64,000 nt of DNA from Methylosinus sp. C49 (lineage in GTDB: Bacteria; Pseudomonadota; Alphaproteobacteria; Rhizobiales; Beijerinckiaceae): assembly GCF_009936375.1 (NCBI RefSeq), contig NZ_AP022332.1, positions 1,054,001 through 1,118,000 of the forward strand, written 5' to 3'. Positions 10,635 through 33,522 of the stretch are shown here, one piece after another; position 1 is the stretch's first letter; each line of letters opens with the position of its first letter. The notes under the pieces are model-generated. The model was not told the origin of the DNA, ran no database searches, and worked only from the letters and a program-made list of their open reading frames with translations. The position numbers and the translations under genes are program-made.

Positions 10635-11689
10635 TCGGCGTGATCGGCGCCGGCGTCGCCGGCCTGACCGCGGCTTTCGAGATCGCCCGCGCCGGCGCGC
10701 CTTTCGGCGCCGAGGTCGAGCTGGTGGAGAGAGCGGCGGGGCCGGGCCGCGGCTGCTCGCATTACGCTGGCGGCATGATCGCGCCCTGGTGCGAATTGGA
10801 GAGCGCCGAGCCCATCGTCGCGACGCTGGGCGAGGAGGCGCTCGCCTTCTGGACCAAGGACATTCCTGTCGCGAACGTCGCCGGCAGCCTCGTCGTCGCG
10901 CCGCCGCGCGACCGCGCCGAGCTGACCGAATTCTCCCGCCGCACTCGCTGTTTCGAGCGGCTGGACGCCGATGGCCTCGCGGCGCTGGAGCCGGCGCTCG
11001 CCGGACGATTCTCGGCCGGGCTCTATTTTCGTGAGGAGGCGCATCTCGAGCCGCGCGCGGCGATGGCGGCGCTGTTCGAACGGTTGCAGACAATGGACAA
11101 TGTTCGCATCCGGCTCTGCGCCGATTCTGTCCCGCGGGCGGATTGGATCGTCGATTGCCGCGGCTTCGCCGCGCGCGGCGAGCTGGCGGAGCTGCGCGGC
11201 GTCAAGGGCGAGATGCTCGTGCTGCGCAGCGAGGAGATCGAATTGTCCCGCCCCGTCCGCATGCTGCATCCGCGCCATCCGGTCTATGTGGTGCCGCGCG
11301 GGCAGGGCGTGTTCATGGTCGGCGCGACCATGATCGAGAATGAGGAGCGCTCCCGCGTCACCGCGCGCTCCATCGTCGAGCTGGTCAATTCGGCCTTCGC
11401 CATTCATCCCGCTTTCGCCGAGGCGGAGATCGTCGAGACGGGATCGGATGTGCGGCCGGCGTTTCCGGACAATCTGCCGCGCATTTCGCGCCAGGGTCGG
11501 ACGCTCTATGTCAATGGGCTCTATCGGCATGGATTTCTTCTGGCGCCGGCGCTGGCGCGCCGCGTCGCGCGTTTCCTCTTCACGGGCGAGATCTTCCCGG
11601 AGGTCATGAATGCGAATCAGGGTGAATGGGCAGACGCTCGAGGTCGAGGCGCCCACGTTGGAGCGCCTCATCGAGGAATTGGGCTTTAG
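10628..11689 (+). CDS. thiO: Glycine oxidase ThiO
   Basis: The 353-residue FAD-dependent amine oxidase begins MLIGVIGAGVAGLTAAFEIA, a dinucleotide-binding motif, and has CSHYAGGMIAPWCE, VYVVPRGQGVFMVGATMIE and a C-terminal NGLYRHGFLLAPALA. ThiO oxidises glycine to the imine used to build the thiazole of thiamine. It is the first main gene after the TPP riboswitch. The final 26 residues overlap thiS by 80 bases in another frame; the normal family end lies near FPEVMNANQGE, so the tail may be an extension. Confidence 0.95.
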   Translation: MLIGVIGAGVAGLTAAFEIARAGAPFGAEVELVERAAGPGRGCSHYAGGMIAPWCELESAEPIVATLGEEALAFWTKDIPVANVAGSLVVAPPRDRAELTEFSRRTRCFERLDADGLAALEPALAGRFSAGLYFREEAHLEPRAAMAALFERLQTMDNVRIRLCADSVPRADWIVDCRGFAARGELAELRGVKGEMLVLRSEEIELSRPVRMLHPRHPVYVVPRGQGVFMVGATMIENEERSRVTARSIVELVNSAFAIHPAFAEAEIVETGSDVRPAFPDNLPRISRQGRTLYVNGLYRHGFLLAPALARRVARFLFTGEIFPEVMNANQGEWADARGRGAHVGAPHRGIGL

Positions 11690-11807
11690 CGAGCAGACCA
11701 TCGCCACGGCGGTGAATCAGGAATTCGTGCGCAGCAAGGATCGCGGCGAGACGCTGCTGGTCGAGGACGATACGATCGAGATCGTCACGCCGCGGCAGGG
11801 AGGGTGA
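11610..11807 (+). CDS. thiS: Sulfur carrier protein ThiS
   Basis: The 65-residue ubiquitin-like protein MRIRVNGQTLEVEAPTLERL ends in the obligatory Gly-Gly, which is adenylated and thiocarboxylated to carry sulfur to ThiG. The IATAVNQEFVRS segment is family-typical. It overlaps the end of thiO, implying coupled translation. The next thiamine gene, thiG, is separated from it by a small unrelated gene. Confidence 0.95.
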   Translation: MRIRVNGQTLEVEAPTLERLIEELGFSEQTIATAVNQEFVRSKDRGETLLVEDDTIEIVTPRQGG

Positions 11808-11860
11808 GGGGATTGTCGAACTTGCTACCTCCTCCACAAACTCCATGTTAGGGTCGGCCC

Positions 11861-12085
11861 ATGAGCACGATCGTCACGGAAATCTACGACGCCCTCCGAG
11901 AAGCCGGCGCGAGCGAGGAGAAAGCGCGCAAGGCTGCCGAAGTCGTCGCTAATTTCGACTCGAAGAACAGCGACGTTCAGCATGAATTCGCCTTGCTGAA
12001 AGGCGAGTTCAACACCGTGAAATGGATGCTCGCGACCAATATCACGCTCACGCTTCTGGTGCTCGGAAAGCTGTTCCTGCACTGA
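11861..12085 (+). CDS. Small coiled-coil, membrane-anchored protein (DUF1640-like)
   Basis: This 74-residue protein has an amphipathic helical N-terminal part ([20 protein letters not shown]), a short charged middle part ([16 protein letters not shown]) and one C-terminal membrane segment ([16 protein letters not shown]). The layout resembles the small DUF1640/CCDC90-like proteins of bacteria; function is unknown. It sits inside the thi operon between thiS and thiG, where it has no known role. A possible promoter (TTGCTA, then TGTTAG near 11850) precedes it, so it may be a separate unit. Confidence 0.65.
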
Positions 12086-12129
12086 TGGCCGATGCGGTTT
12101 CCTGTCGAGCCCCGAACCAGCCGAATGCG

Positions 12130-12924
12130 ATGACTGCGTCTCTCCTCCTCTATGGCGAGGTCCTATCCTCCCGTTTCCTGCTCGGCACGGCGCGCTATCC
12201 TTCGCCCGCCATTCTCGCCGAGGCGATCCGCGCCGCGAGGGCGGAGGTCGTCACCGTCTCGCTGCGGCGGGAGGCCGGGGGCTCGCGCGCGGGCGAGAGC
12301 TTTTGGCGGCTCATTCGCGAGCTGGGCGTACGCGTGCTGCCCAACACCGCCGGCTGCCGCACGGCCAAGGAGGCCGTCGCCACCGCGCAAATGGCGCGCG
12401 AGCTGTTCGGAACCAATTGGATCAAGCTCGAGGTCATCGGCGAGGAGGACACGCTGCAGCCGGATGTCTTCGGCCTGGTGGAGGCGGCGCGCATCCTCAG
12501 CGACGACGGCTTTTGCGTCTTTCCCTATACGACAGAGGATCTCGTCGTCGCGGAGAGACTGCTCGACGCCGGTTGCCGCGTGCTGATGCCCTGGGCCGCT
12601 CCCATCGGCTCCGGCCGCGGGATCAATAATCTCTTCGGCCTGCGGGCGCTGCGCGCGCATTTTCCGCAGACCCCGCTGATCGTGGACGCCGGCCTCGGCG
12701 CGCCCTCGCAGGCGGCGGCGGTCATGGAACTCGGCTTCGACGCCGCTCTGCTCAACACGGCGGTGGCGCGCGCCGGCGATCCGGTCGCCATGGCGCGGGC
12801 CTTCGCGCTCGCCATAGACGCGGGCCGGGCGGCCTATCTCTCCGGCCTGATGGAGCCGCGCGACATGGCGGCGCCCTCGACGCCCGTGCTCGGCCGCGCC
12901 TTCGGCGACGGATTCGAGGCATGA
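12130..12924 (+). CDS. thiG: Thiazole synthase ThiG
   Basis: The ATG at 12130 gives [20 protein letters not shown], matching the family start; an in-frame ATG at 12085 adds 15 residues. Motifs include [65 protein letters not shown] and [31 protein letters not shown]. The Schiff-base lysine is in IKLEVIG. ThiG condenses DXP, the ThiO imine and ThiS thiocarboxylate into the thiazole. Its TGA overlaps what was probably the original thiE ATG (12921). Confidence 0.96.
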
Positions 12925-13117
12925 GCGCGTTTTCGTTCCCACCTCCCCCTGGAGGGGGGAGGTCGAGCGCCGAAGGCGCTCGGGAGGGGGTGAGCCTCCG
13001 AGTCTCGGGCCGTGAACCCCACCCCGTCCTGCTGCGCAGGCCGACCCTCCCCCGGAAGGGGAGGGTGGGTCGCGCCGCCTCTCATTCGAGAGAGATCGAG
13101 GCATGAGCGCGTTTTCG
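12914..13117. mobile_element. Repeat element flanked by a 22-bp direct duplication
   Basis: The 22 bases at 12914-12935 are repeated exactly at 13096-13117. Both copies contain GAGGCATGAGCGCG, the junction of thiG stop and thiE start. Between them lies a composite REP-like element (12936-13078) with terminal CCACCTCCCCC and GACCCTCCCCC/GGGGAGGGT modules. The arrangement looks like insertion of the repeat with duplication of target DNA, leaving thiE a fresh start codon. No transposase is encoded. Confidence 0.65.
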
Positions 13118-13750
13118 CTCGACCCGTTTTATCTCATCGTCGATTCCGCCGATTGGCTGCCCCGGCTGCTGCCTTGCGGCGTGCGGCTCGTACAATTGCG
13201 CGTCAAGGATCGTGAGGAGGCGGCGCTGCGCGCGGAGATCGCCCGCGCCCGCGATCTTTGCGCGGCCCATGGCGCGCAGCTCGTCGTCAATGATTACTGG
13301 CGGCTCGCCATCGATCTTTCCTGCGATTTCGTGCATCTCGGCCAAGGCGATCTCGACACGGCCGATATCGCAGCGATCCGCTCCCATGGAATAAGGCTCG
13401 GCGTCAGCACGCATGACGAGGCGGAGCTGGAACGGGCGTTGGCGCTCGCTCCCGATTATGTCGCGCTGGGGCCGATCTATCCGACCTTGCTGAAGCAAAT
13501 GGCCTTCGCCCCACAGGGGCTCGAGAAGATCGGCGGCTGGAAACGCCGCATCGGCGCGATTCCGCTCGTGGCCATAGGCGGGCTGACGCCGGAGCGCGCC
13601 CGAGCGGCGCTGGCGGCGGGGGCGGACAGCGCCTGTGTCGTCACCGATATATTGCGCGCCGCGGAGCCGGAGGCGCGCGCTCGCGAGTGGGTGGAGGCGA
13701 CGGACGAAAAGCGTCTCACGACGCTCCGCCGATCGGCCACTCCCCTTTGA
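13103..13750 (+). CDS. thiE: Thiamine-phosphate synthase-like protein ThiE
   Basis: The 215-residue TIM-barrel protein has FYLIVDSADWLPRLLPCGVRLVQLRVKD, VVNDYWRLAIDLSCDFVHLGQGDLD, RLGVSTHDEAELERAL, DYVALGPIYPT and IPLVAIGGLTPERARAALAAGADSACVVTDI. ThiE joins HMP-PP and thiazole phosphate to give thiamine phosphate. The start ATG 13103 is the second copy of a duplicated junction. The last 35 bases overlap the convergent SoxYZ-like gene. Confidence 0.95.
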   Translation: MSAFSLDPFYLIVDSADWLPRLLPCGVRLVQLRVKDREEAALRAEIARARDLCAAHGAQLVVNDYWRLAIDLSCDFVHLGQGDLDTADIAAIRSHGIRLGVSTHDEAELERALALAPDYVALGPIYPTLLKQMAFAPQGLEKIGGWKRRIGAIPLVAIGGLTPERARAALAAGADSACVVTDILRAAEPEARAREWVEATDEKRLTTLRRSATPL

Positions 13751-14507
13751 ACACATTGCCCTGATTGTCGCGCGCCTCGACCCGCATCACCTTGGCGCCG
13801 TTGGGCTTGTAGGCGAAGCGAAAGCTCGGATCCTCCGACAGGGAAATTCCCCCTTCCATGGAGAAGATCAGCGCCTCCCCCTGCCGCACTTCGACCTTGT
13901 CGACATAATGAGCCGGAATATAGGCTCGGGTGATCGGGTCCATCTGCAATCCCGAACTATTGGGATGGCGAATCATGATCTGCGCCTCGCGCAGCGCGGG
14001 ATTCTCGCTGGCGAACTCGCGATATTTCATCTTGCCGAGATTGGCGGAGGCCTCGTCCTGATCCTTGATCGCCGGGGCCGAGCAGCCGCCCGAGGCCTTC
14101 ACGAATTTCACCACCGAATGCAGCGCGCCATCGCTCGTTTGGCCGACGACATGCACATTGGTGTAGGAGTTCACGCGCACGCGCGTCTCGATCTTCGTGA
14201 CGCCGGCGCCCTCGCCGAAGGAGAAGGCCGCGGCCATGGGCATGGGATTCTCGTCGATGACCAGCGTCGCCGCGCGCAGGCCGGGCTCGAGCAGCGAGAT
14301 GGTCATCGGCACGATGGCGGCGTCCTCGGCCCGCTTCGGCGCGTCGAGCGCCACCACGCCCTCATGCGCGGCGATCGCGCGGTCGTGGAAAATATCGGTG
14401 ACGAGGCCCGGCCAGGGATCGATCTTCGGCTCCTGGGCCAGCGCCGCGCCGGCCGAAAGGCATAGCGCCGCGACGATTGCGATGGGGCTCGTGGTCCAAT
14501 GGCTCAT
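13716..14507 (-). CDS. Quinoprotein dehydrogenase-associated SoxYZ-like carrier
   Basis: The 263-residue protein begins MSHWTTSPIAIVAALCLSAG with a signal peptide ending near ALAQ; the start at 14507 follows GGAGGAACGCAG. The SoxY-like half includes VKASGGCSAPAIKDQDE, where the cysteine would be the carrier residue, and the SoxZ-like half has IMIRHPNSSGLQMDPITR and IFSMEGGISLSEDPSFRF. This fused family is found next to PQQ alcohol dehydrogenases; its chemistry is not established. It lies downstream of the metallohydrolase gene in a unit divergent from xoxF. Confidence 0.85.
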   Translation of the reverse strand: MSHWTTSPIAIVAALCLSAGAALAQEPKIDPWPGLVTDIFHDRAIAAHEGVVALDAPKRAEDAAIVPMTISLLEPGLRAATLVIDENPMPMAAAFSFGEGAGVTKIETRVRVNSYTNVHVVGQTSDGALHSVVKFVKASGGCSAPAIKDQDEASANLGKMKYREFASENPALREAQIMIRHPNSSGLQMDPITRAYIPAHYVDKVEVRQGEALIFSMEGGISLSEDPSFRFAYKPNGAKVMRVEARDNQGNVFKGEWPIGGAS

Positions 14508-14558
14508 CTGCGTTCCTCCGCTATTTTGTCGAAGCATAGCGCTCCGCGCTCGGGCGGC

Positions 14559-15482
14559 TCAAGGGGCCTCCCATTCGAGCTCCGCGAAGCCGGCCGTGGC
14601 GTTGCGCGTGTGATAATCCTCGAACAGCAGCCAATTGGGCTTTTCGCCGCGGCCGGCTGTCGTCACAGCGCGCGCGAGCGTCTCCCCTTTGGCGATATCG
14701 GCCCGCAAATCGCGGGTGAGATGGTCGAGATAGGCTTTTTGCGCCTCCAGCGCCTGCGGCCAGGGAGCGACCGCCGGCCCATGGCCGGGCACGACGCGGA
14801 CCGCCTCGATCTTCCGCAACTCCTCGATGACGGCGAGAAAGCCCAAAAGGCTGCCGTCGACGATCGGCACATGCTGCAGAAACAAGAGATCGCCGGTAAA
14901 GAGCGTGCCGCTCTGCGGATCGAGCACGGTGAGATCGGAATCGCTATGGGCGGTGCGCCAGGCTTTCAGCGTGATCGCGCGGCCGCCGAGATCGAGAATC
15001 GTCTCGCGCTCGACGGCGAGGGTCGGCGGAACCAGAATCACATCGTCGAGCAAGGCGCCCATCGTCTCACGGAAAGAAGAGAGATAATGCGGGCCGCGCG
15101 TCGCCATGGCGCGCGCGAGATTCTTGTGTCCGACGAAGACGGCTCCCGTGTCTCGAAAGGCAATATTCCCGAAAATATGATCCGGGTGGACATGCGTGTC
15201 GATGACATAACGGATCGGCTTGGTCGTGCGCTGCTGCAATGCAGCGAGGAAGGCCGCGCCCTCCGCGCGGCTGCCGCCCGTGTCGATGACCGCGACCGCC
15301 TCCGCGCCGACGATGGCGCCGAGATTGGCGATGCCGCCCAGGTTGTCACGAGACATCAAAGCGGTCACGCCCTGATGGACGAAGACTCCGGGCGCGATCT
15401 CCGACAGCTCGAAGCTTTTCGCGCCGCTCGCGACGAGGCAGAGACACGTGATCGCGAGCCTTCGAATAGTGCGTTGCAGCAT
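14559..15482 (-). CDS. Quinoprotein-associated zinc metallohydrolase (MBL fold)
   Basis: The 307-residue protein starts MLQRTIRRLAITCLCLVASG, a signal peptide, then shows the metallo-beta-lactamase motifs: VIDTGGSRAEG, THVHPDHIFGN (HxHxDH), TAHSDSDLTV, FTGDLLF and VVPGHGP. It fits the quinoprotein relay system zinc metallohydrolase group, periplasmic proteins linked to PQQ dehydrogenases and SoxYZ-like carriers. The substrate is unknown. The gene is divergent from xoxF with a shared 313-base intergenic region. Confidence 0.87.
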   Translation of the reverse strand: MLQRTIRRLAITCLCLVASGAKSFELSEIAPGVFVHQGVTALMSRDNLGGIANLGAIVGAEAVAVIDTGGSRAEGAAFLAALQQRTTKPIRYVIDTHVHPDHIFGNIAFRDTGAVFVGHKNLARAMATRGPHYLSSFRETMGALLDDVILVPPTLAVERETILDLGGRAITLKAWRTAHSDSDLTVLDPQSGTLFTGDLLFLQHVPIVDGSLLGFLAVIEELRKIEAVRVVPGHGPAVAPWPQALEAQKAYLDHLTRDLRADIAKGETLARAVTTAGRGEKPNWLLFEDYHTRNATAGFAELEWEAP

Positions 15483-15795
15483 CGGTTTTTCAGCCTTGTT
15501 TTTCGCCGGTTTCACGCGCGAAATCAGGAAAGTCGGGAATGGTATTTGGGGATTGCGCTTCAATTCTGTGCGACATATTATCCCGCCGTTTCCGACCTAA
15601 AAGAGGCTTTCCGGCCGGGAACCGGAGAGCATCTCGACGGAGATAGGGGCGGAGCTGCGGGCGCGGCGTTTCCGCTCGATCGACGTGGCAAAAAAACGGG
15701 GAAACGGCTTCCCAAAGCCTAGGGCGTCGGAAAGGCGCGATGTCGGCGGCGTGGCCGGGCCTTTTGCACGGTGATGTCGTCAGGAGGAAAAGCTC
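15483..15795. promoter_or_regulatory. Divergent control region of the xox locus
   Basis: This 313-base non-coding region separates the metallohydrolase gene from xoxF and must hold both promoters. The strong AGGAGGAAAAGCTC ribosome-binding site of xoxF is at its right end (15782-15795). A short GGGAA/TTCCC dyad lies at 15699-15713. I could not recognise a defined operator for a known regulator here. Confidence 0.55.
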
Positions 15796-17628
15796 ATGCA
15801 TAAGCTGTTGTTGTCGACTTCGGTGGGGATCCTCGCGCTGCTCGGGGCCGGCGCGGCGAGCGCCGACGAGCTGCTCGATCTCCAGAAGAACCCGAAGCAG
15901 TGGGCGTTGCCGACGGGCGACTACGCCAATCTGCGTCATTCGAAGCTGAAGCAGATCACCACCGAGAACGTCGGCAAGCTGGCTCCCGCTTGGAGCTTCT
16001 CGACCGGCGTGCTGCGCGGCCACGAAGGCGCGCCGCTCGTTATCGGCGACGTGATGTATCTTCATACGCCGTTCCCCAACATCGTCTACGCCCTCGATCT
16101 CAACAACGAAGGCAAGATCCTCTGGAAGTATGAGCCCAAGCAGGATCCGAGCGTCGTTCCGGTCATGTGCTGCGACACGGTCAATCGCGGTCTCGCCTAT
16201 GGCGACGGCAAGATCTTCCTGGCCCAGGCCGACACCACCCTCGTCGCTCTCGACGCCAAGAGCGGCAAGCTCGTCTGGTCGGTGAAGAACGGCGATCCGT
16301 CCAAGGGCGCCACCTCGACCGCCGCTCCGCACGTCTTCAAGGACAAGGTCCTCGTCGGCATCGCCGGCGGCGAGTTCGGCGTGCGCGGCAGCATCACCGC
16401 CTATAATGTCAAGGACGGCAGCCTGGCGTGGCGCGGCTATTCGGAAGGCCCGGACTCCGAGGTTCTGCTCGACCCCGAGAAGACCACCTTCCTCGGCAAG
16501 CCGGTCGGCAAGGATTCGTCTCTGAAGACTTGGGAAGGCGATCAGTGGCAGATCGGCGGCGGCACCACCTGGGGCTGGTATTCCTATGACCCCGAGCTGA
16601 ACCTCATCTACTACGGTTCCGGCAACCCCTCCACCTGGAACCCGTCGCAGCGTCCGGGCGACAATCGCTGGTCCATGACCCTGTGGGCGCGCGATCTCAA
16701 CACCGGCGTCGCCAAATGGGTCTATCAGATGACCCCCCATGACGAATGGGACTATGACGGCATCAACGAGGTGATCCTCGCCGATCAGACCATCAATGGT
16801 CAGCCGCGCAAGACCGCCGTCCACTTCGATCGTAACGGCTTCGGCTACACGCTCGATCGCGTCACCGGCGAGCTGCTCGTCGCCGAGAAGTATGACCCGG
16901 CCGTCAATTGGGCGTCCAAGGTCGATATGGACAAGAGCTCGCCGACCTATGGCCGTCCGCTCGTCGTCTCGAAATATTCGACGCAGCAGAATGGCGAGGA
17001 CGTCAACACCAAGGGCGTCTGCCCGGCGGCTCTCGGCTCCAAGGACATGCAGCCCGCGTCCTTCAACCCGGACACCGGCCTGTTCTACGTCCCGACCAAC
17101 CACGTCTGCATGGACTATGAGCCCTTCCGCGTCAGCTACACCGCGGGTCAGCCCTATGTCGGCGCGACGCTGGAGATGTTCCCGCCGCCCGGCGAGTCCA
17201 ACATGGGCAATTTCATTGCCTGGGACGCTCGCGTCGGCAAGATCGTCTGGTCCAACAAGGAGCAGTTCTCGGTCTGGTCCGGCACGGTCACGACCTCCGG
17301 CGGTCTCGCCTTCTACGGCACGCTCGAGGGCTATCTGAAGGCCGTCGACGTCAAGACCGGCAAGGAGCTCTACAAGTACAAGACTCCGTCGGGCATCATC
17401 GGCAATGTGATGACCTATGAGCACAAGGGCAAGCAGTATGTCGCGGTTCTGTCCGGCGTCGGCGGCTGGGCCGGCATCGGCCTCGCGGCCGGCCTGTCCA
17501 AGAGCAATGAAGGCCTCGGCGCGGTCGGCGGCTATAAGGCGCTGTCCGACTACACCGCTCTCGGCGGCGTGCTGACCGTCTTCTCGCTGCCCGACTACGC
17601 TCTGCCGATCGTCGCTCCGGCGAACTGA
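15796..17628 (+). CDS. xoxF: Lanthanide-dependent PQQ methanol dehydrogenase XoxF
   Basis: The 610-residue periplasmic quinoprotein has a signal peptide cut near ASA/DELL (residue 23), then an eight-bladed propeller with the adjacent disulfide cysteines C125-C126 in [10 protein letters not shown]. The segment [11 protein letters not shown] carries the catalytic Asp319 and, two residues on, Asp321. That second Asp is the mark of lanthanide-binding XoxF; calcium MxaF has Ala there. It oxidises methanol to formaldehyde or formate and reduces XoxG. Codon use is strongly biased to C-ending codons, as in a highly expressed gene. AGGAGG precedes the start. Confidence 0.97.
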
Positions 17629-17648
17629 TACGGCCAATAAAAAGATCA

Positions 17649-17683
17649 GCGCTCGGCGAACGCTCCTGGCGCGCGCCGAGCGC
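17649..17683 (+). promoter_or_regulatory. Hairpin between xoxF and xoxG
   Basis: GCGCTCGGCG at 17649-17658 pairs with CGCCGAGCGC at 17674-17683 across a 15-base loop, followed by CTTGTTTGTG. The weak T-run suggests partial termination or protection of the xoxF message from 3' decay, which would lower xoxG relative to xoxF. The hairpin lies 38 bases before the xoxG start. Confidence 0.6.
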
Positions 17684-17721
17684 CTTGTTTGTGTGGATGG
17701 AAACTGCTGGAGGATGGCGTA

Positions 17722-18243
17722 ATGAGACTGCCGCTCGTCGGGGCACTCGCCCTGAGCGTCTTCATGGGTGTTGGAACGACCGTGCGCGCCGAAGCGCCGG
17801 GAGACCCGACCGCGGTCAAGGAAGTGGACGGCAAGTGGTTCGACGCGCAGGGCAAGCCGACCTATAAGGTTCAGGCGGACGGCACTGTCGATTGGTACAC
17901 TTTCTCCGGCTATCGCCGCTATCATGCCGAATGCCACGTCTGCCACGGCCCCAACGCCGAAGGCTCGACCTATGCCCCGGCGCTGAAGAATTCGGTCAAG
18001 AACTTCAATTACGAGGAGTTCTACGGCATTGTCGTCGGCGGCCGCGAGAATAAGCAGGCGGGCAATGACAGCGTCATGCCGGCTTTCGCCGACAATAAGA
18101 ACGCCATGTGCTATATCGACGACCTCTACATCTATCTCCGCGCCCGCTCGACCGAGGCGGTCGGCCGTGGCCGTCCCGAGAAGAAGGCGGAGAAGCCCGC
18201 GGCCTTCACCGAGGCCGAAGCGAAGTGCATGAGCGCTAAGTGA
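17722..18243 (+). CDS. xoxG: Cytochrome c XoxG (electron acceptor of XoxF)
   Basis: This 173-residue periplasmic cytochrome has a signal peptide (cleavage near VRAEA) and one haem motif CHVCH at residues 71-75. A possible Met axial ligand is in DSVMPAFADN. The start ATG 17722 follows GGAGGATGGCGTA. It accepts electrons one at a time from the PQQ of XoxF and passes them to a terminal cytochrome c. The C-terminal part is Lys/Glu-rich. It overlaps no other gene and lies 93 bases after xoxF, 59 bases before xoxJ. Confidence 0.93.
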   Translation: MRLPLVGALALSVFMGVGTTVRAEAPGDPTAVKEVDGKWFDAQGKPTYKVQADGTVDWYTFSGYRRYHAECHVCHGPNAEGSTYAPALKNSVKNFNYEEFYGIVVGGRENKQAGNDSVMPAFADNKNAMCYIDDLYIYLRARSTEAVGRGRPEKKAEKPAAFTEAEAKCMSAK

Positions 18244-28040: not shown

Positions 28041-29234
28041 TCACGCCGGCTCGCGCACTTTCTCCTCCTCCGGCTCCTTCACGCTGGGGAGAGCGGCCAG
28101 CTGCTTCGGCCGATAGGCGGGGTCGATCTCCGCTTTCTCTCGCACGGGGGCGAAATCCTCGCTGGAATCGATGGGGCGAATGTAATCGCCGCTCCAGGTC
28201 ACAAATTTGGCGAGGCGCTGATCGTCGAGCGGATAGACGGAGGGCAGGCCGAGCGTCGCCGGCAGCTTCACGAGCAGCACGGTCGCCAGACGATAGAGGA
28301 ATGTCTGGCTGTTCTGAATCTTCTCGGCCGGATTGGGGCCGAAGGGCCGGGTGAAGGAGAGCTTCACATTGGCGAAGTTCAAAAGCTTCAGGCCATTCTC
28401 CGCGGCGCGCTCGGCCATCCACACCAGCGCATAGTCGGAGAGGCCGTGCTCCTCATAGCCGCCGCCGACATTGGAGTGCACGCCCGGAAACCAGCGCTCG
28501 GTGTAGAAGGGAAAGCCGCGCTCGGCGATGTTTTTCGCATTGCGCTCCCGATGATAGTCGGTGAGCGCGATCGGCGTCGGCCGGAAGGGCCAGCGACGCT
28601 CGTCCGCCGCCAGCGCGTGATAGGCGGAATCGACGCTCGTGCTCAGCGTCACATCGTGAAAGCTCGTGTGGAAGAATTTGTCGATGAGCCGGCCGAGAAT
28701 TTCGCCATAGGGCGCGCCGAGCGCGCCGACCGTGTCCCACACGCCGAGGAATTTGATCTTGGTCGGATAGGGATGGCAATTCTCGGCGCGGAATGTCTGC
28801 GCGGAGGCGCCGCCCGGGCGCCACTCCGCGGCCCTGTCCTTGTAATGGTCATAGGCGATGGAGACGAGCGGCAGATTCCAGCGCTTCAGCACGCCGAGAT
28901 TGTGAATGAGCCCGGCGATGCTGCGCGCCGTATAGGCGCCGCGGCTGAAGCCGAAGAGATAGATGTCGTCGCCCGGCTCGTAATTGCTGACGATGAAGGC
29001 GTAGGCGTCCTTGATATTGTCGGAGATGCCGAAGCCGAATGCGCCGCCGATGACCTTCTCGTCTTTGCGCGTGCCGACTCCGGCGATGTAATGGGTGAGC
29101 TGCGGATTGTCGTCGGCGTCGAGAAAATCAGTGGCCTGCAGCATTCGCACGACATTGGTGCCGCGCTTGGTCGGCTCGTTCCACGTGCCGTCGCAAAAGA
29201 TCACGAGCTTCTTGTTGGGCTTGGTCGCGGTCAT
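28041..29234 (-). CDS. DUF2235 alpha/beta-hydrolase (Tle-like phospholipase family)
   Basis: The 397-residue protein has KLVIFCDGTWNEPTKRGTNVVRML and the nucleophile elbow DIYLFGFSRGAYTARSIAGLIH (GFSRGA), which place it in DUF2235. Some members are type VI secretion phospholipase effectors; many are not. No secretion gene lies nearby, so a general esterase role is just as likely. It has no signal peptide. It is convergent with brnA, with a six-base gap. Confidence 0.88.
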   Translation of the reverse strand: MTATKPNKKLVIFCDGTWNEPTKRGTNVVRMLQATDFLDADDNPQLTHYIAGVGTRKDEKVIGGAFGFGISDNIKDAYAFIVSNYEPGDDIYLFGFSRGAYTARSIAGLIHNLGVLKRWNLPLVSIAYDHYKDRAAEWRPGGASAQTFRAENCHPYPTKIKFLGVWDTVGALGAPYGEILGRLIDKFFHTSFHDVTLSTSVDSAYHALAADERRWPFRPTPIALTDYHRERNAKNIAERGFPFYTERWFPGVHSNVGGGYEEHGLSDYALVWMAERAAENGLKLLNFANVKLSFTRPFGPNPAEKIQNSQTFLYRLATVLLVKLPATLGLPSVYPLDDQRLAKFVTWSGDYIRPIDSSEDFAPVREKAEIDPAYRPKQLAALPSVKEPEEEKVREPA

Positions 29235-29392: not shown

Positions 29393-31666
29393 TCAGAAGG
29401 GCAGCGGGCCGGTGATCGACACGCGCACGGCCGGCGGCTCCATCGGCTTGAAATGTCGGCCCATCACGCCGACCGAGCAGACATTGCTCGGCGCGACGCC
29501 CGCCTTGCACAGGCCATAGAGCGGATCGGAGGGGATCAACGATCCATAGCCATAGGTTATCATGTCGGAGCGCGAATTGGTGACGTTGAAAGCGTCGGCC
29601 TGAATGCTCCAGCCATTGTCGAAGCGATAGCCGGCGCGCAGATTGAGCGTTCCGGTCGCCGGCGATTTGAAGGCGCCGTCCTCGGTCAGCGGGCGCTCGC
29701 CGAGATAGCGATAGCGCAGCGCCGCGAAGGGGCCGGTCGTCTCGCCCACCTCGATCTGGCCCATGGCGACGATGTTGGGCGAGTCGGGAATGTAATTGCC
29801 CGGGGCGTTGCCGACATAGGTTCCGTAGCCGATCGCATCGGGCGAGAGGAGATCGATCCAGGCCAGCGCCTGCTGCTGGTCGACGCCGCGGAAGCGCGCA
29901 TGAGACAGCGACACGCTGCCCTCCATGCGCAGCCAGGAGGCGGGCGTGTAATGGTTGATGATCTCGACGCCATAGCGCCGGCTCGGCCGGCCGAAGGCCG
30001 TGCTGCCGGAATCGCCCTCGAACTGATTCTCCGAATCATTGTTCAGCCACCAGAAGGCGACCGAGGATTCGAGCCCTTCCAGCAGGCGCGTGGTCCGCAC
30101 GCCGATCTCGGCGCCGCGCTGCTTCACCAGCAGGGGAATGGTCGCCACGTTGGAGCCGTCGGCCGGGCTCAGCCGGGTCACGGTTCCGCGCACGTCGGTC
30201 GAATGCAGCCCTTCGCCGAAATTGAGGAAGAGCTCGGTCTGCTCGAAGGGGCCGATAACGACGCCGACCTTCGGGCTGCCCATCGTCGCCGATTTGGAGC
30301 CGCTGTTCCAAGGGCCGGTCCAGATCGGAGCGCCATTCTCGTCCTTGGGCGCGGAGAGCGGATCTTGCAGGCTGCCGACGCTGGCGGCGAAATAGTCGAA
30401 GCGCACGCCGCCTGTGGCGCGCAGCCAAGGCGTGAAGCGAACCGTGGTGTCGGTCCAAAGGCTCACGCTGCCTTCCGCCACATGGCTGTTGGTGATCGTG
30501 TCATAGGGCTGGCGCCGCCAGCTGTCCTGGAGGCCGAGACGAATATTGTCGTAGCGGCTCTCGAGGCCGATGCGCGACTCGATCGGCAGGCCGGCGAGCT
30601 CGTATTTATAGGCGTGCTGCGCGTTGACGCCGAGCACGGTGCGCCGGTCGAATTGGCGGAACTGGTCGCCGATGTCGGGATGCGACAGGAAATAGGTGAA
30701 ATTATTGTAGAGATCGAGCGTCGAGCGGATGGCGTAGGCTTCCACGCGCGAGGAATGCGCGCCTTCCGTCTGGCTCCAGCGCGCCGAGAGGCTGAAGCGC
30801 GAGGCGTCGCCGCCGTCCGTGCTGTCGACATTGCCCCAGAGCGGCATGATCCCGCCATAGACGGCGCGCGAGGGGATCTGGTCGGTGGAGAACCAGCGGT
30901 TGGCGTAGGCCATTGCGGTGATGGAGACGCCGTCCTCCTGGGTGCCGCGCGACCAGCGCAGCACCGAATTGATCTTGCGCATCTCGTCCGGCCGCGTCCA
31001 CGGGCCGTTATAGATGCTCGATTCGATGGCGGTGAGCAGATTGCCGCCATTCACCTCGAAGCTCTTGGCGCCGAGCAGGCGGCCATAGGCGAAGCTGCCG
31101 CCCGTCGCCCGGAAGAAGCCGCGGTCGAGCTTGTCGATATATTGCATATCGACCGAGCCGGCCGAGGAGAAATCGCCCTTGTCGGCGTAATAGGGGCCTT
31201 TGCGGCCGACGACGGAGGAGAGCAGCTCCGGGATCAGGAAATTGGCGTCCGCATAGCCCTGGCCGTGGCCATGGGTGCGCATATTGATCGGCATTCCGTC
31301 GAGCGTCAGCGAGAAATCGGTGCCGTGGTCGAGCTGGAAGCCGCGCAGAAAATATTGGTTCGCCTTGCCCTCGCCGCTGTGCTGCGTGACCGAGAGGCCG
31401 GGGACGATCTCGAGCGCCTCGCCCGGCCGCGCGAAGGGAACGGCGTTGACCTGCTGGCCGCTGAAGACGGTCTCGCTGGCCGCCTCGACCCGCACCTTCG
31501 CCTTTTGCGCGTCTTCCGCGCGCGCCGCCGCCGCCGCCGGCGTCCCGGCTGCGATCGGCGCGCCGACGTCTATGTCCGGGAGAGCCTCCTGGGCGATGGC
31601 GCCGCCGCCGAAAAGGGCGACCGCCAGGGCCAATGCCGAAACTTCGCCAATTCGCCGGCCAATCAT
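29393..31666 (-). CDS. TonB-dependent outer-membrane receptor, probably nickel-regulated
   Basis: The 757-residue protein starts MIGRRIGEVSALALAVALFG at 31666, behind GAGGGGGCGGAG, with a signal peptide ending near GAIAQ. A plug domain (residues about 45-180) has FARPGEALEIVPGLSVTQHSGEGKANQYFLRGFQLDHGTDF-type features and GMPINMRTHGHGQGYADANF, followed by a 22-strand barrel ending in aromatic PLPF. Such receptors import scarce ligands with TonB energy. A perfect NikR operator lies 12 bases upstream of the start, and nikR is the next gene upstream, so nickel or a nickel chelate is the best-supported ligand class. Other metals cannot be excluded. Confidence 0.9.
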   Translation of the reverse strand: MIGRRIGEVSALALAVALFGGGAIAQEALPDIDVGAPIAAGTPAAAAARAEDAQKAKVRVEAASETVFSGQQVNAVPFARPGEALEIVPGLSVTQHSGEGKANQYFLRGFQLDHGTDFSLTLDGMPINMRTHGHGQGYADANFLIPELLSSVVGRKGPYYADKGDFSSAGSVDMQYIDKLDRGFFRATGGSFAYGRLLGAKSFEVNGGNLLTAIESSIYNGPWTRPDEMRKINSVLRWSRGTQEDGVSITAMAYANRWFSTDQIPSRAVYGGIMPLWGNVDSTDGGDASRFSLSARWSQTEGAHSSRVEAYAIRSTLDLYNNFTYFLSHPDIGDQFRQFDRRTVLGVNAQHAYKYELAGLPIESRIGLESRYDNIRLGLQDSWRRQPYDTITNSHVAEGSVSLWTDTTVRFTPWLRATGGVRFDYFAASVGSLQDPLSAPKDENGAPIWTGPWNSGSKSATMGSPKVGVVIGPFEQTELFLNFGEGLHSTDVRGTVTRLSPADGSNVATIPLLVKQRGAEIGVRTTRLLEGLESSVAFWWLNNDSENQFEGDSGSTAFGRPSRRYGVEIINHYTPASWLRMEGSVSLSHARFRGVDQQQALAWIDLLSPDAIGYGTYVGNAPGNYIPDSPNIVAMGQIEVGETTGPFAALRYRYLGERPLTEDGAFKSPATGTLNLRAGYRFDNGWSIQADAFNVTNSRSDMITYGYGSLIPSDPLYGLCKAGVAPSNVCSVGVMGRHFKPMEPPAVRVSITGPLPF

Positions 31667-31678
31667 CTCCGCCCCCTC

Positions 31679-31706
31679 GTATGATTTTTTTATTATCAGA
31701 TCATAC
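31679..31706 (-). promoter_or_regulatory. NikR operator (GTATGA-N16-TCATAC)
   Basis: GTATGA at 31679-31684 and TCATAC at 31701-31706 are separated by exactly 16 bases, the E. coli NikR operator consensus. It lies directly upstream of the TonB receptor ribosome-binding site and 64 bases beyond the 3' end of nikR. Ni-bound NikR here would block transcription of the receptor when nickel is plentiful. The spacer is T-rich and unlike the surrounding GC-rich DNA. Confidence 0.88.
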
Positions 31707-31770
31707 GAGCGCGGCCGTGGCAACGACCCGCTTACGGATTTACCCGCAGCGTTGCATTTGTGTCACAGCC

Positions 31771-32229
31771 TCAAGCGTGGCTGTGGCCGTGGTGGGGCTT
31801 TTGCGTGGAGGCGCCCTCCGGCGAATGCGCCTCGGCCGGGGCGACGACGAGCTGGCCATATCGCACGCCGCGCTCGCCGATCACATGCTGCGCGAAATGC
31901 TCCACCTCGGATTTGGGGCCGCGCAGCAGCGAGACCTCGAGGCAGGTCTCGGCGTCGACATGCACATGCAGTGCGGCGATGGAGAGGTCGGCGTGGCTGT
32001 GATGGTCGTGCATCAGCCGCTTCGACAATTGCCGGGTCTCGTGATCGTAGAGATAGACGAGCGCGCCGATGCAAGGGCGGTCGCGGTCGTCGACCTTGGG
32101 CTTTTTCAGCAGGCCGGCGCGCACCAGATCGCGCACCGCCTCGGACCGATTTTGATGCCCGCCGGCCTCCATATACTGGTCGAGAGCGGCCATGAGATCA
32201 TCGTCGATGGTCATGGTGACACGCTGCAT
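31771..32229 (-). CDS. nikR: Nickel-responsive regulator NikR
   Basis: The 152-residue protein starts MQRVTMTIDDDLMAALDQYM at 32229. The N-terminal ribbon-helix-helix (residues 1-50) is followed by an ACT-type nickel domain with HDHHSHADLSIAALHVHVDAETCLEVSLLRG; the H, HxH and Cys match the high-affinity square-planar nickel site. A His-rich tail (EAHSPEGASTQKPHHGHSHA) ends the protein. It is a nickel-dependent repressor. Its predicted operator sits at the neighbouring TonB receptor gene, and hupE is divergent. Confidence 0.95.
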   Translation of the reverse strand: MQRVTMTIDDDLMAALDQYMEAGGHQNRSEAVRDLVRAGLLKKPKVDDRDRPCIGALVYLYDHETRQLSKRLMHDHHSHADLSIAALHVHVDAETCLEVSLLRGPKSEVEHFAQHVIGERGVRYGQLVVAPAEAHSPEGASTQKPHHGHSHA

Positions 32230-32403: not shown

Positions 32404-33522
32404 ATGAGCTGGTCGTCGAAATGCCTGCCGATCGTCGTCGCCGCATTGCTCGCATCGATTGCGCCGACCTTCGCCCATACGGCGGATATTTCCACCGCCA
32501 AGATCACGCCCGAGAAGGATCGTTCCTATCAGGTCGACGTCGGCTTTCTGGCGACCGATCTCGAGCGCATTTTCTCGCAGACCATGGCGGAGCGCGCCGG
32601 CGTCGAGCTGTCGCAGCCGGGCGTGCTGGAGACGCAGATCGGCAAGCTCGTTCAGCGCCGCGTCTCCATGCATGACGCCGAGGGACACGCCTGCGCCGGC
32701 CGCGTGGATTACGCCGGAGAGGATCCCACCAATGCGGACAGCGCGCTGGTGAAGCTGAAGCTCGATTGCTCCAGCGTTCCCGGCCAGATTTTCTACGACG
32801 CAAAGGAGCTGCTCGGCGCCGCCGGCTCCAGGGCCAAGCATCTCGTCACCCTGACCGGCGACAACGCCGGCGAGACCATGCTCTATCCCGCCGATCCGCC
32901 GCTCGATCTGTCGAAGCCGCTGGAAACGGTCTGGCAGCTGATGTGGAAATTCGTGCAGGCCGGCGTCGAGCATATTCTCACCGGCTACGATCATGTCTGC
33001 TTTCTGATTGCCATTCTTCTATGGGCGACGCGCGTCTGGCCGGTGGTGAAGATCGTCACCGCCTTCACCGTTTCCCATTCGATCACGCTGTCGCTGGCGG
33101 CGCTCGATATTGTGACGCTGCCGTCGCAATGGGTGGAGGCGGCGATCGCCGCTTCTATCATCTATGTCGCGGTCGAGAATTTCGTCTCGCGCCGCGTCGA
33201 CGGGCGCTGGCGCGACACGTTTCTCTTCGGCTTCATCCATGGCTTCGGCTTCGCCAGTAGCTTGAAGGAGCTCGGTGTGCCGGCGAACGCCGTGCTGCCG
33301 GCGCTCGCCTCCTTCAACATAGGCGTCGAGCTCGGACAAGTGGCGATCGTGCTGGTCTTCGTGCCGGCGCTGCTCTTCATCGACAAGCAGACCGGCGGCA
33401 AGCGCAGCCCGCGGCTCGTCTACGCGCTGTCGGGCGTGATTGCTCTCGTCGGCGCCTATTGGCTGCTGGAGCGCGTCGGCGCGCTGGATTTCATCCTCGC
33501 GCATCTCGGCCATTCGGCCTGA
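32404..33522 (+). CDS. HupE/UreJ family membrane protein, possible nickel permease
   Basis: The 372-residue protein starts MSWSSKCLPIVVAALLASIA at 32404, with a signal peptide ending near FAHTA. A periplasmic domain of about 160 residues is followed by a C-terminal membrane domain with several helices and the motif GVEHILTGYDHVCFLIAILLWA, FTVSHSITLSLA, and FGFIHGFGFASSLKELG. This is the HupE/UreJ-2 form. HupE proteins can carry nickel. Divergent to nikR by 174 bases, so a nickel role is the best inference; no NikR box was seen in that gap. Confidence 0.85.
   Translation: MSWSSKCLPIVVAALLASIAPTFAHTADISTAKITPEKDRSYQVDVGFLATDLERIFSQTMAERAGVELSQPGVLETQIGKLVQRRVSMHDAEGHACAGRVDYAGEDPTNADSALVKLKLDCSSVPGQIFYDAKELLGAAGSRAKHLVTLTGDNAGETMLYPADPPLDLSKPLETVWQLMWKFVQAGVEHILTGYDHVCFLIAILLWATRVWPVVKIVTAFTVSHSITLSLAALDIVTLPSQWVEAAIAASIIYVAVENFVSRRVDGRWRDTFLFGFIHGFGFASSLKELGVPANAVLPALASFNIGVELGQVAIVLVFVPALLFIDKQTGGKRSPRLVYALSGVIALVGAYWLLERVGALDFILAHLGHSA

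Follow-up and report, generated by a model that had tools for sequence, protein, structure and literature searches.

A perfect match to the NikR operator consensus in front of a putative nickel receptor gene in Methylosinus sp. C49, and predicted NikR or cobalamin riboswitch control among homologous receptors

We report here a perfect copy of the NikR operator pattern, GTATGA-N16-TCATAC, in the methanotroph Methylosinus sp. C49, located between a nikR gene and the gene of a TonB-dependent receptor within a stretch of 64,000 nucleotides (hereafter the window, to which all positions refer unless another locus is named). The reading that we favour, with a probability of about 85%, is that this locus is a nickel-scavenging unit under NikR, in which the receptor would be on when nickel is scarce and off when it is sufficient. 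The operator and its uniqueness, its conservation together with the receptor, the similarity of the NikR protein to that of E. coli and the gene neighbourhood have all been computed. In the mechanism that we infer, which takes in NikR binding and repression, the place of the promoter, dependence on TonB, the metal transported and the role of a HupE-like permease, scarcity of nickel would leave NikR off the operator and the receptor gene would be transcribed from a promoter that probably overlaps it; the TonB-dependent receptor would then carry nickel, probably chelated, through the outer membrane, and the HupE-like permease would move it over the inner membrane towards [NiFe] hydrogenases and urease. 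Once nickel is sufficient, nickel-loaded NikR would occupy the operator and the receptor would be shut off. The genome has a use for nickel, since it has matches to the large subunit of [NiFe] hydrogenase at C1:141-150 kb, weaker ones at C1:2.87 Mb, and urease alpha at C1:2.87 Mb. A preliminary description of this DNA had already suggested a nickel-responsive outer-membrane uptake unit, a proposal that gains support from the conservation of the operator and from the nickel genes found beside it in relatives. Among named records the closest is Methylosinus sporium DSM 17706, with a receptor identity of 97%.

The predicted operator (31679-31706) is a palindrome without a single mismatch to the published E. 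coli NikR consensus (PMC7055735), and it sits within the 104-bp gap separating nikR and the receptor gene, with 12 bases (31667-31678) between it and the receptor ATG (31666-31664, minus strand); the consensus match, its position and this spacing had all been described correctly. At 65% G+C the chance of a perfect site is 9.4e-9 per position, i.e., 0.044 sites would be expected in the 4.70-Mb genome and 7e-7 in the gap. A pattern scan of the genome found one perfect copy, that in front of the receptor. Allowing up to three mismatches, the window gave five matches against 5.74 expected from shuffles, the other four having three mismatches each, and with two or fewer mismatches allowed, 21 sites in the genome compare with 18 for the reversed pattern, which is the control level and leaves the perfect operator alone standing out. 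The two one-mismatch sites of the genome are located inside ORFs matching a ring-hydroxylating oxygenase (L036) and a glycosyltransferase (L037) and are therefore probably chance matches. A wider NikR regulon in this Methylosinus genome was considered and rejected on these same two grounds, the intragenic one-mismatch sites and the control-level number of sites at up to two mismatches. The genome holds 45 matches to the PF00593 receptor barrel (two adjacent ones possibly being one gene), and by their listed positions only the receptor described here has a perfect or one-mismatch site shortly upstream. A tentative -35-like TTGCCA, read by eye, is present 11 bases upstream of the operator (31718-31723, minus strand), and in four relatives (L022, L063, L065 and L025) TTGAC can be read by eye at 11 or 12 bases from the site, likewise upstream. 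In the Methylosinus-type loci TTGAC or TTGCC precedes the operator, yet convincing -10 spacing was not seen. An Rfam search of window positions 20000-45000 gave no element at gathering scores.

The receptor gene (29393-31666, minus strand) encodes a putative nickel receptor of 757 amino acids with a plug (PF07715, 2.3e-12) and a barrel domain (PF00593, 4e-16). Its AlphaFold2 model (pLDDT 82.2, pTM 0.83) is a barrel with PqqU and YncD as best fold matches, i.e., the predicted fold is of the general TonB-dependent receptor type, and among the 50 fold matches listed none was titled as a nickel receptor. The next gene upstream is nikR (31771-32229, minus strand, 152 amino acids; ribbon-helix-helix RHH_1, PF01402, and NikR_C, PF08753), and the divergent gene beyond it encodes a HupE/UreJ_2 permease of 372 amino acids (32404-33522, plus strand; PF13795, HupE_UreJ_2, 4.2e-48), an arrangement given in the preliminary description with which both coordinates and Pfam domains agree. 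The nikR gene is single-copy in the genome, and its product passes NF002815 and scores 169.7 with TIGR02793, slightly below the cut-off of 175.45. NikR residues 1-133 align with E. coli NikR (E 3.6e-34), and alignment to 1q5v showed that R3, T5 and T7 (in the N-terminal MQRVT.T), which we take to be DNA-contact residues, are kept together with H77, H88, H90 and C96, which presumably match nickel ligands. Past the aligned stretch the protein ends in a histidine-rich tail, HHGHSHA (31771-31794), and similar tails can be read in the NikR of L021 and L063. The HupE-like permease is likely to provide the inner-membrane nickel step; the gap between nikR and hupE contained no NikR site at up to three mismatches, and control through a weaker site would be possible. 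The annotated neighbours, which cover part of the window, included no nickel enzyme and no tonB or exbBD gene. Directly downstream of the receptor gene there is a gene for a T6SS Tle1-like phospholipase catalytic domain protein (28041-29234, minus strand; PF09994, 1.2e-77).

The conservation and distribution of the operator were analyzed across homologous receptor loci collected by searches of the family (E ≤ 1e-60) and the order (E ≤ 1e-100), of genome contigs (80 of 468 confirmed relatives kept) and of plasmids. At the respective thresholds only 10 of the 119 family genomes and 28 of the 397 order genomes contained the receptor. In total 127 loci were obtained, eight of them on plasmids, and dropping 8 repeat receptors left 119 distinct loci; it should be noted that these were chosen by similarity to the window receptor, and fractions among them are not family-wide frequencies. 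The test of operator conservation predates the plasmid loci and is based on the first 119 loci, which comprise 112 distinct receptors, five of which were dropped for short upstream DNA to leave 107 with at least 1550 bp upstream. The scan upstream of homologues that had been suggested as a check found the operator within 1500 bp, measured from the start of sequence similarity rather than from mapped start codons, in perfect form in 61 and with at most one mismatch in 77 of the 107. Dinucleotide shuffles gave no such site at the latter threshold (0 of 2140), and at two mismatches there were 83 of 107 homologues against 28 of 2140 shuffles; control spacers of 13-15 or 17-19 in place of 16, as well as reversed halves, gave 0 of 107. 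The closest, Methylosinus-type relatives (L021, L063, L022 and L065), with receptor identities of 97, 82, 75 and 75%, carry the site with 0, 1, 1 and 1 mismatches, respectively, between nikR and the receptor as in the window.

Classification of the 119 distinct loci gave 79 with an operator of at most one mismatch and six in which it has two; a cobalamin riboswitch was present in 14 and neither element in 20. Homologues lacking the operator, which had been named beforehand as evidence against a nickel unit, were thus found, as 34 of the 119 have no site of two or fewer mismatches and 20 have neither element, but upstream of the other 14 of these 34 Rfam identified a cobalamin riboswitch, which for those 14 reads as a change of control. 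Methylocystis rosea SV97 (L074) has nikR adjacent and a best site of three mismatches. On two M. rosea plasmids nikR, the receptor and efflux genes occur together with no site better than three mismatches; in these (L145 8193-17301 and L147) a distant nikR (35% identity) and the receptor are followed by TolC and an adaptor, with CzcA-type efflux genes in addition in L145; uptake and efflux make an unusual combination here. The Methylomagnum and Cupriavidus relatives (L149 and L143) showed no operator, the nearest matches having five and four mismatches.

Nickel-related genes accompany the operator in most of the loci that carry it. In 41 of the 79 operator loci the operator is located more than 1 kb upstream of the receptor, and every one of these has a gene for a NiCoT permease in the interval (one such gene was confirmed by the profiles PF03824 and TIGR00802); nikR is found in 28 of the remaining 38. 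Altogether 69 of the 79 have nikR, NiCoT or HupE in the fetched stretch and ten have none of the three; fetched flanks vary in length, and a missing neighbour is weak evidence. HupE is found beside nikR and the receptor in six of the 119 distinct loci, all of Methylosinus/Methylocystis type, and with NiCoT in others this means that permeases of two Pfam families accompany one receptor family. The inclusion of HupE in the unit, as first proposed, holds as far as the shared locus goes, but the permease gene has no NikR site of its own and common control is a prediction. By annotation, hyp genes, nikR and the receptor are close together on pHCG3 of Afipia carboxidovorans, and a Bradyrhizobium plasmid carries NiCoT, receptor and hydrogenase genes. 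At the level of genomes, nikR is present in 26 of the 119 members of the family, including all ten with the receptor, for which the chance probability is 5e-8, uncorrected for genome kinship. In two of these ten (G008 and G017) the receptors are solely riboswitch-type or unassigned, so that the joint presence of nikR and receptor need not mean that one controls the other.

In a blind reverse test the perfect site was searched for in 199 genomes of the order, ignoring the receptor. This gave 27 sites in 22 genomes, against three for the reversed control. The loci were fetched one per genome, which placed five further sites outside, and 16 of the 22 hold nikR, the receptor or NiCoT, the receptor being present in six of those 16. 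The other six loci include two with SBP_bac_5 (best NCBIfam match NikA, far below the cut-off), one with CbiM and DUF4198 and one with HupE_UreJ; the last two adjoin thymidylate synthase and a KduI-family gene, for which we know of no nickel link.

The exclusive use of either nickel or B12 control within one receptor family is the more interesting part of this work and is worth following. Direct Rfam searches covered 35 of the 40 loci that do not belong to the operator group and 10 of the 79 that do, the window included, and a profile made from 17 Rfam hits, which came from 15 loci lacking the operator, was applied with nhmmer to all 119; at no locus (0 of 119) did operator and riboswitch occur together. 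The ten operator loci run with Rfam had no riboswitch upstream of the receptor; in one of them (L034) such an element occurs at another place, on the opposite strand. The riboswitch-type homologues are 42-66% identical to the window receptor, and none of the 14 loci has nikR, NiCoT, HupE or any of the hydrogenase/hyp genes searched for in the fetched stretch. A tree of 58 receptors chosen to represent 117 (after removal of two short ones), made with a quick method and with 13 of 55 inner branches open, needs at least five changes between the types when two-mismatch loci are counted as operator type. The types are mixed in two clades, one with Methylosinus/Methylocystis and the other holding a Methylorubrum receptor, and both Methylosinus sp. 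Ce-a6 (L022 and L023) and Methylosinus sp. Sm6 (L063 and L066) carry one receptor of each type. Three Methylocystis-type receptors closely related to riboswitch-bearing ones (L069, L075 and L076) have, by eye, seemingly kept flanks with the cobalamin riboswitch absent, and look as if the aptamer had been deleted.

The receptors of both types share a set of histidines. Of the 12 in the window receptor, four (H96, H114, H134 and H488) occur throughout the 92 receptors aligned, 78 of them operator-type and 14 riboswitch-type, and H132 is shared with a single exception. A consistent difference between the types is seen at 15 positions, with no histidine among them. Profile alignments show gaps in BtuB and YncD/PqqU opposite the H132/H134 stretch, THGH in the plug. 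The shared histidines, together with this gap in BtuB, would point to a small metal complex rather than a corrinoid as the substrate of both types.

These data bear on what the receptor carries. It may be that it transports cobalt, or cobalt together with nickel, with NikR setting only the timing and with the regulator and the inner-membrane partner deciding the metal; we consider this possible, though short of an even chance. The occurrence of the riboswitch instead of the operator at 14 of the 119 loci, with none having both, is in its favour, as are the histidines invariant or nearly so in both types and the riboswitch-receptor-NiCoT-CobW arrangement of Novosphingobium, which has been read as cobalt uptake (PMC7689651). 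Against it, nickel genes (nikR, NiCoT or HupE) are found at 69 of 79 operator loci and at none of the 14 riboswitch loci, and the 15 positions that distinguish the types suggest that selectivity may have changed. In the same vein, the notion of one receptor chassis serving two metals, in which regulation and inner-membrane partner set the metal gained more than the receptor does, is put forward here tentatively and as the less probable case.

Siderophores and corrinoids are the best-known substrates of TonB-dependent receptors, and import of such a compound, with the NikR site adjusting the receptor indirectly, has to be weighed as well. The riboswitch-type relative L023 does adjoin siderophore-synthesis genes: positions 11486-17751 of that locus, beside the receptor, encode a second TonB-dependent receptor, an ATP-grasp protein, an IucA/IucC siderophore synthetase and an MFS protein, which is possibly a metallophore cluster. 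We nevertheless hold corrinoid or siderophore import to be quite unlikely, given that the window receptor scores 18.1 bits with the BtuB model (TIGR01779) against a cut-off of 599.7 and is not a BtuB member, that the plug THGH is gapped in BtuB and YncD/PqqU, and that nickel genes adjoin the receptors of operator type. A chance origin of the palindrome, for which one could cite the chance-level frequency of three-mismatch sites in the window, is very improbable and was rejected on the basis of the shuffles, the 27 sites against three in the blind test, the small number of perfect sites expected per genome and the conserved position in relatives. Uptake of nickel under NikR is the reading that we retain for this locus.

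The literature places this receptor as a further member of a predicted class, and the idea of a NikR-regulated nickel receptor is itself not new (PMC3400609; PMC4284471; PMC7142613). Table 2 of PMC3400609 lists Bll6948, Daro_3944, RPA_4757, pHCG3_081 and Daro_1684 as one nickel/cobalt cluster (987). Two of these, Bll6948 and Daro_3944, are marked as predicted in PMC7142613, citing Rodionov 2006, and counted among known nickel transporters in PMC11247825; PMC4284471, also from Rodionov 2006, reports the identification in Proteobacteria of nickel-regulated genes for outer-membrane transporters. The window receptor shares 50.5% identity, over 91% of the query, with the sole annotated TonB-dependent receptor on pHCG3, which has nikR adjacent and a one-mismatch operator. 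We infer that this receptor, OCA5_RS17450, is pHCG3_081 from its being the only one in the pHCG3 annotation table, itself incomplete. The likeness to cluster 987 consists of this sequence kinship via pHCG3, the predicted substrate and NikR control; the partner permease differs within the family, being HupE-like in the window and a NiCoT between operator and receptor in 41 relatives. The comparison with FrpB4 of Helicobacter made in the preliminary description is fair for the logic of control, since outer-membrane nickel uptake in Helicobacter (FrpB4/NikH) is cited with experiment and FrpB4 is NikR-repressed (PMC3856676), but PMC3400609 places FrpB4 in a separate cluster (1856) with haem receptors, and the nearest known relatives are those of the Bll6948 group. 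The E. coli NikR-nikABCDE system has the identical operator consensus and a closely similar NikR, but its target is an inner-membrane ABC importer whereas that in the window is a receptor. The cobalamin-riboswitch receptors found here belong to the same family and have the same conserved histidines, but a B12 riboswitch replaces the NikR site and nikR, NiCoT and HupE are absent from the fetched stretch in all 14. PMC7689651 states that confirmation is lacking for any cobalt-specific receptor. No statement of the exclusive operator/riboswitch split in this family was found in the literature searched, in which Rodionov 2006 and Schauer 2008 were represented by papers citing them, and NikR and Methylosinus are scarcely mentioned together there. 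Methylosinus is a culturable genus in which a nickel-switched receptor could be tested at a single promoter, and the two Methylosinus genomes with both a nickel-switch and a B12-switch receptor offer a ready comparison for the determinants of nickel/cobalt selectivity.

Two further features of the homologous loci were observed. Rfam matches to 5_ureB_sRNA near receptor loci with nikR (L030 3645-3932 and L032 5755-6045) suggest that urease genes are nearby. A sigma-54-type element, TGGC-N8-TGC, stands just ahead of the operator, its end 1-9 bases away, in 19 of the 79 operator loci (L046, L083, L084, L086, L089, L090, L094, L096, L097, L101, L102, L108, L109, L114, L116, L122, L125, L128 and L130), all of them among the 41 with NiCoT in between, against a background of 101 in 15800 random 45-bp windows; in such loci sigma-54 control may extend to nickel uptake, with NikR acting as a block.
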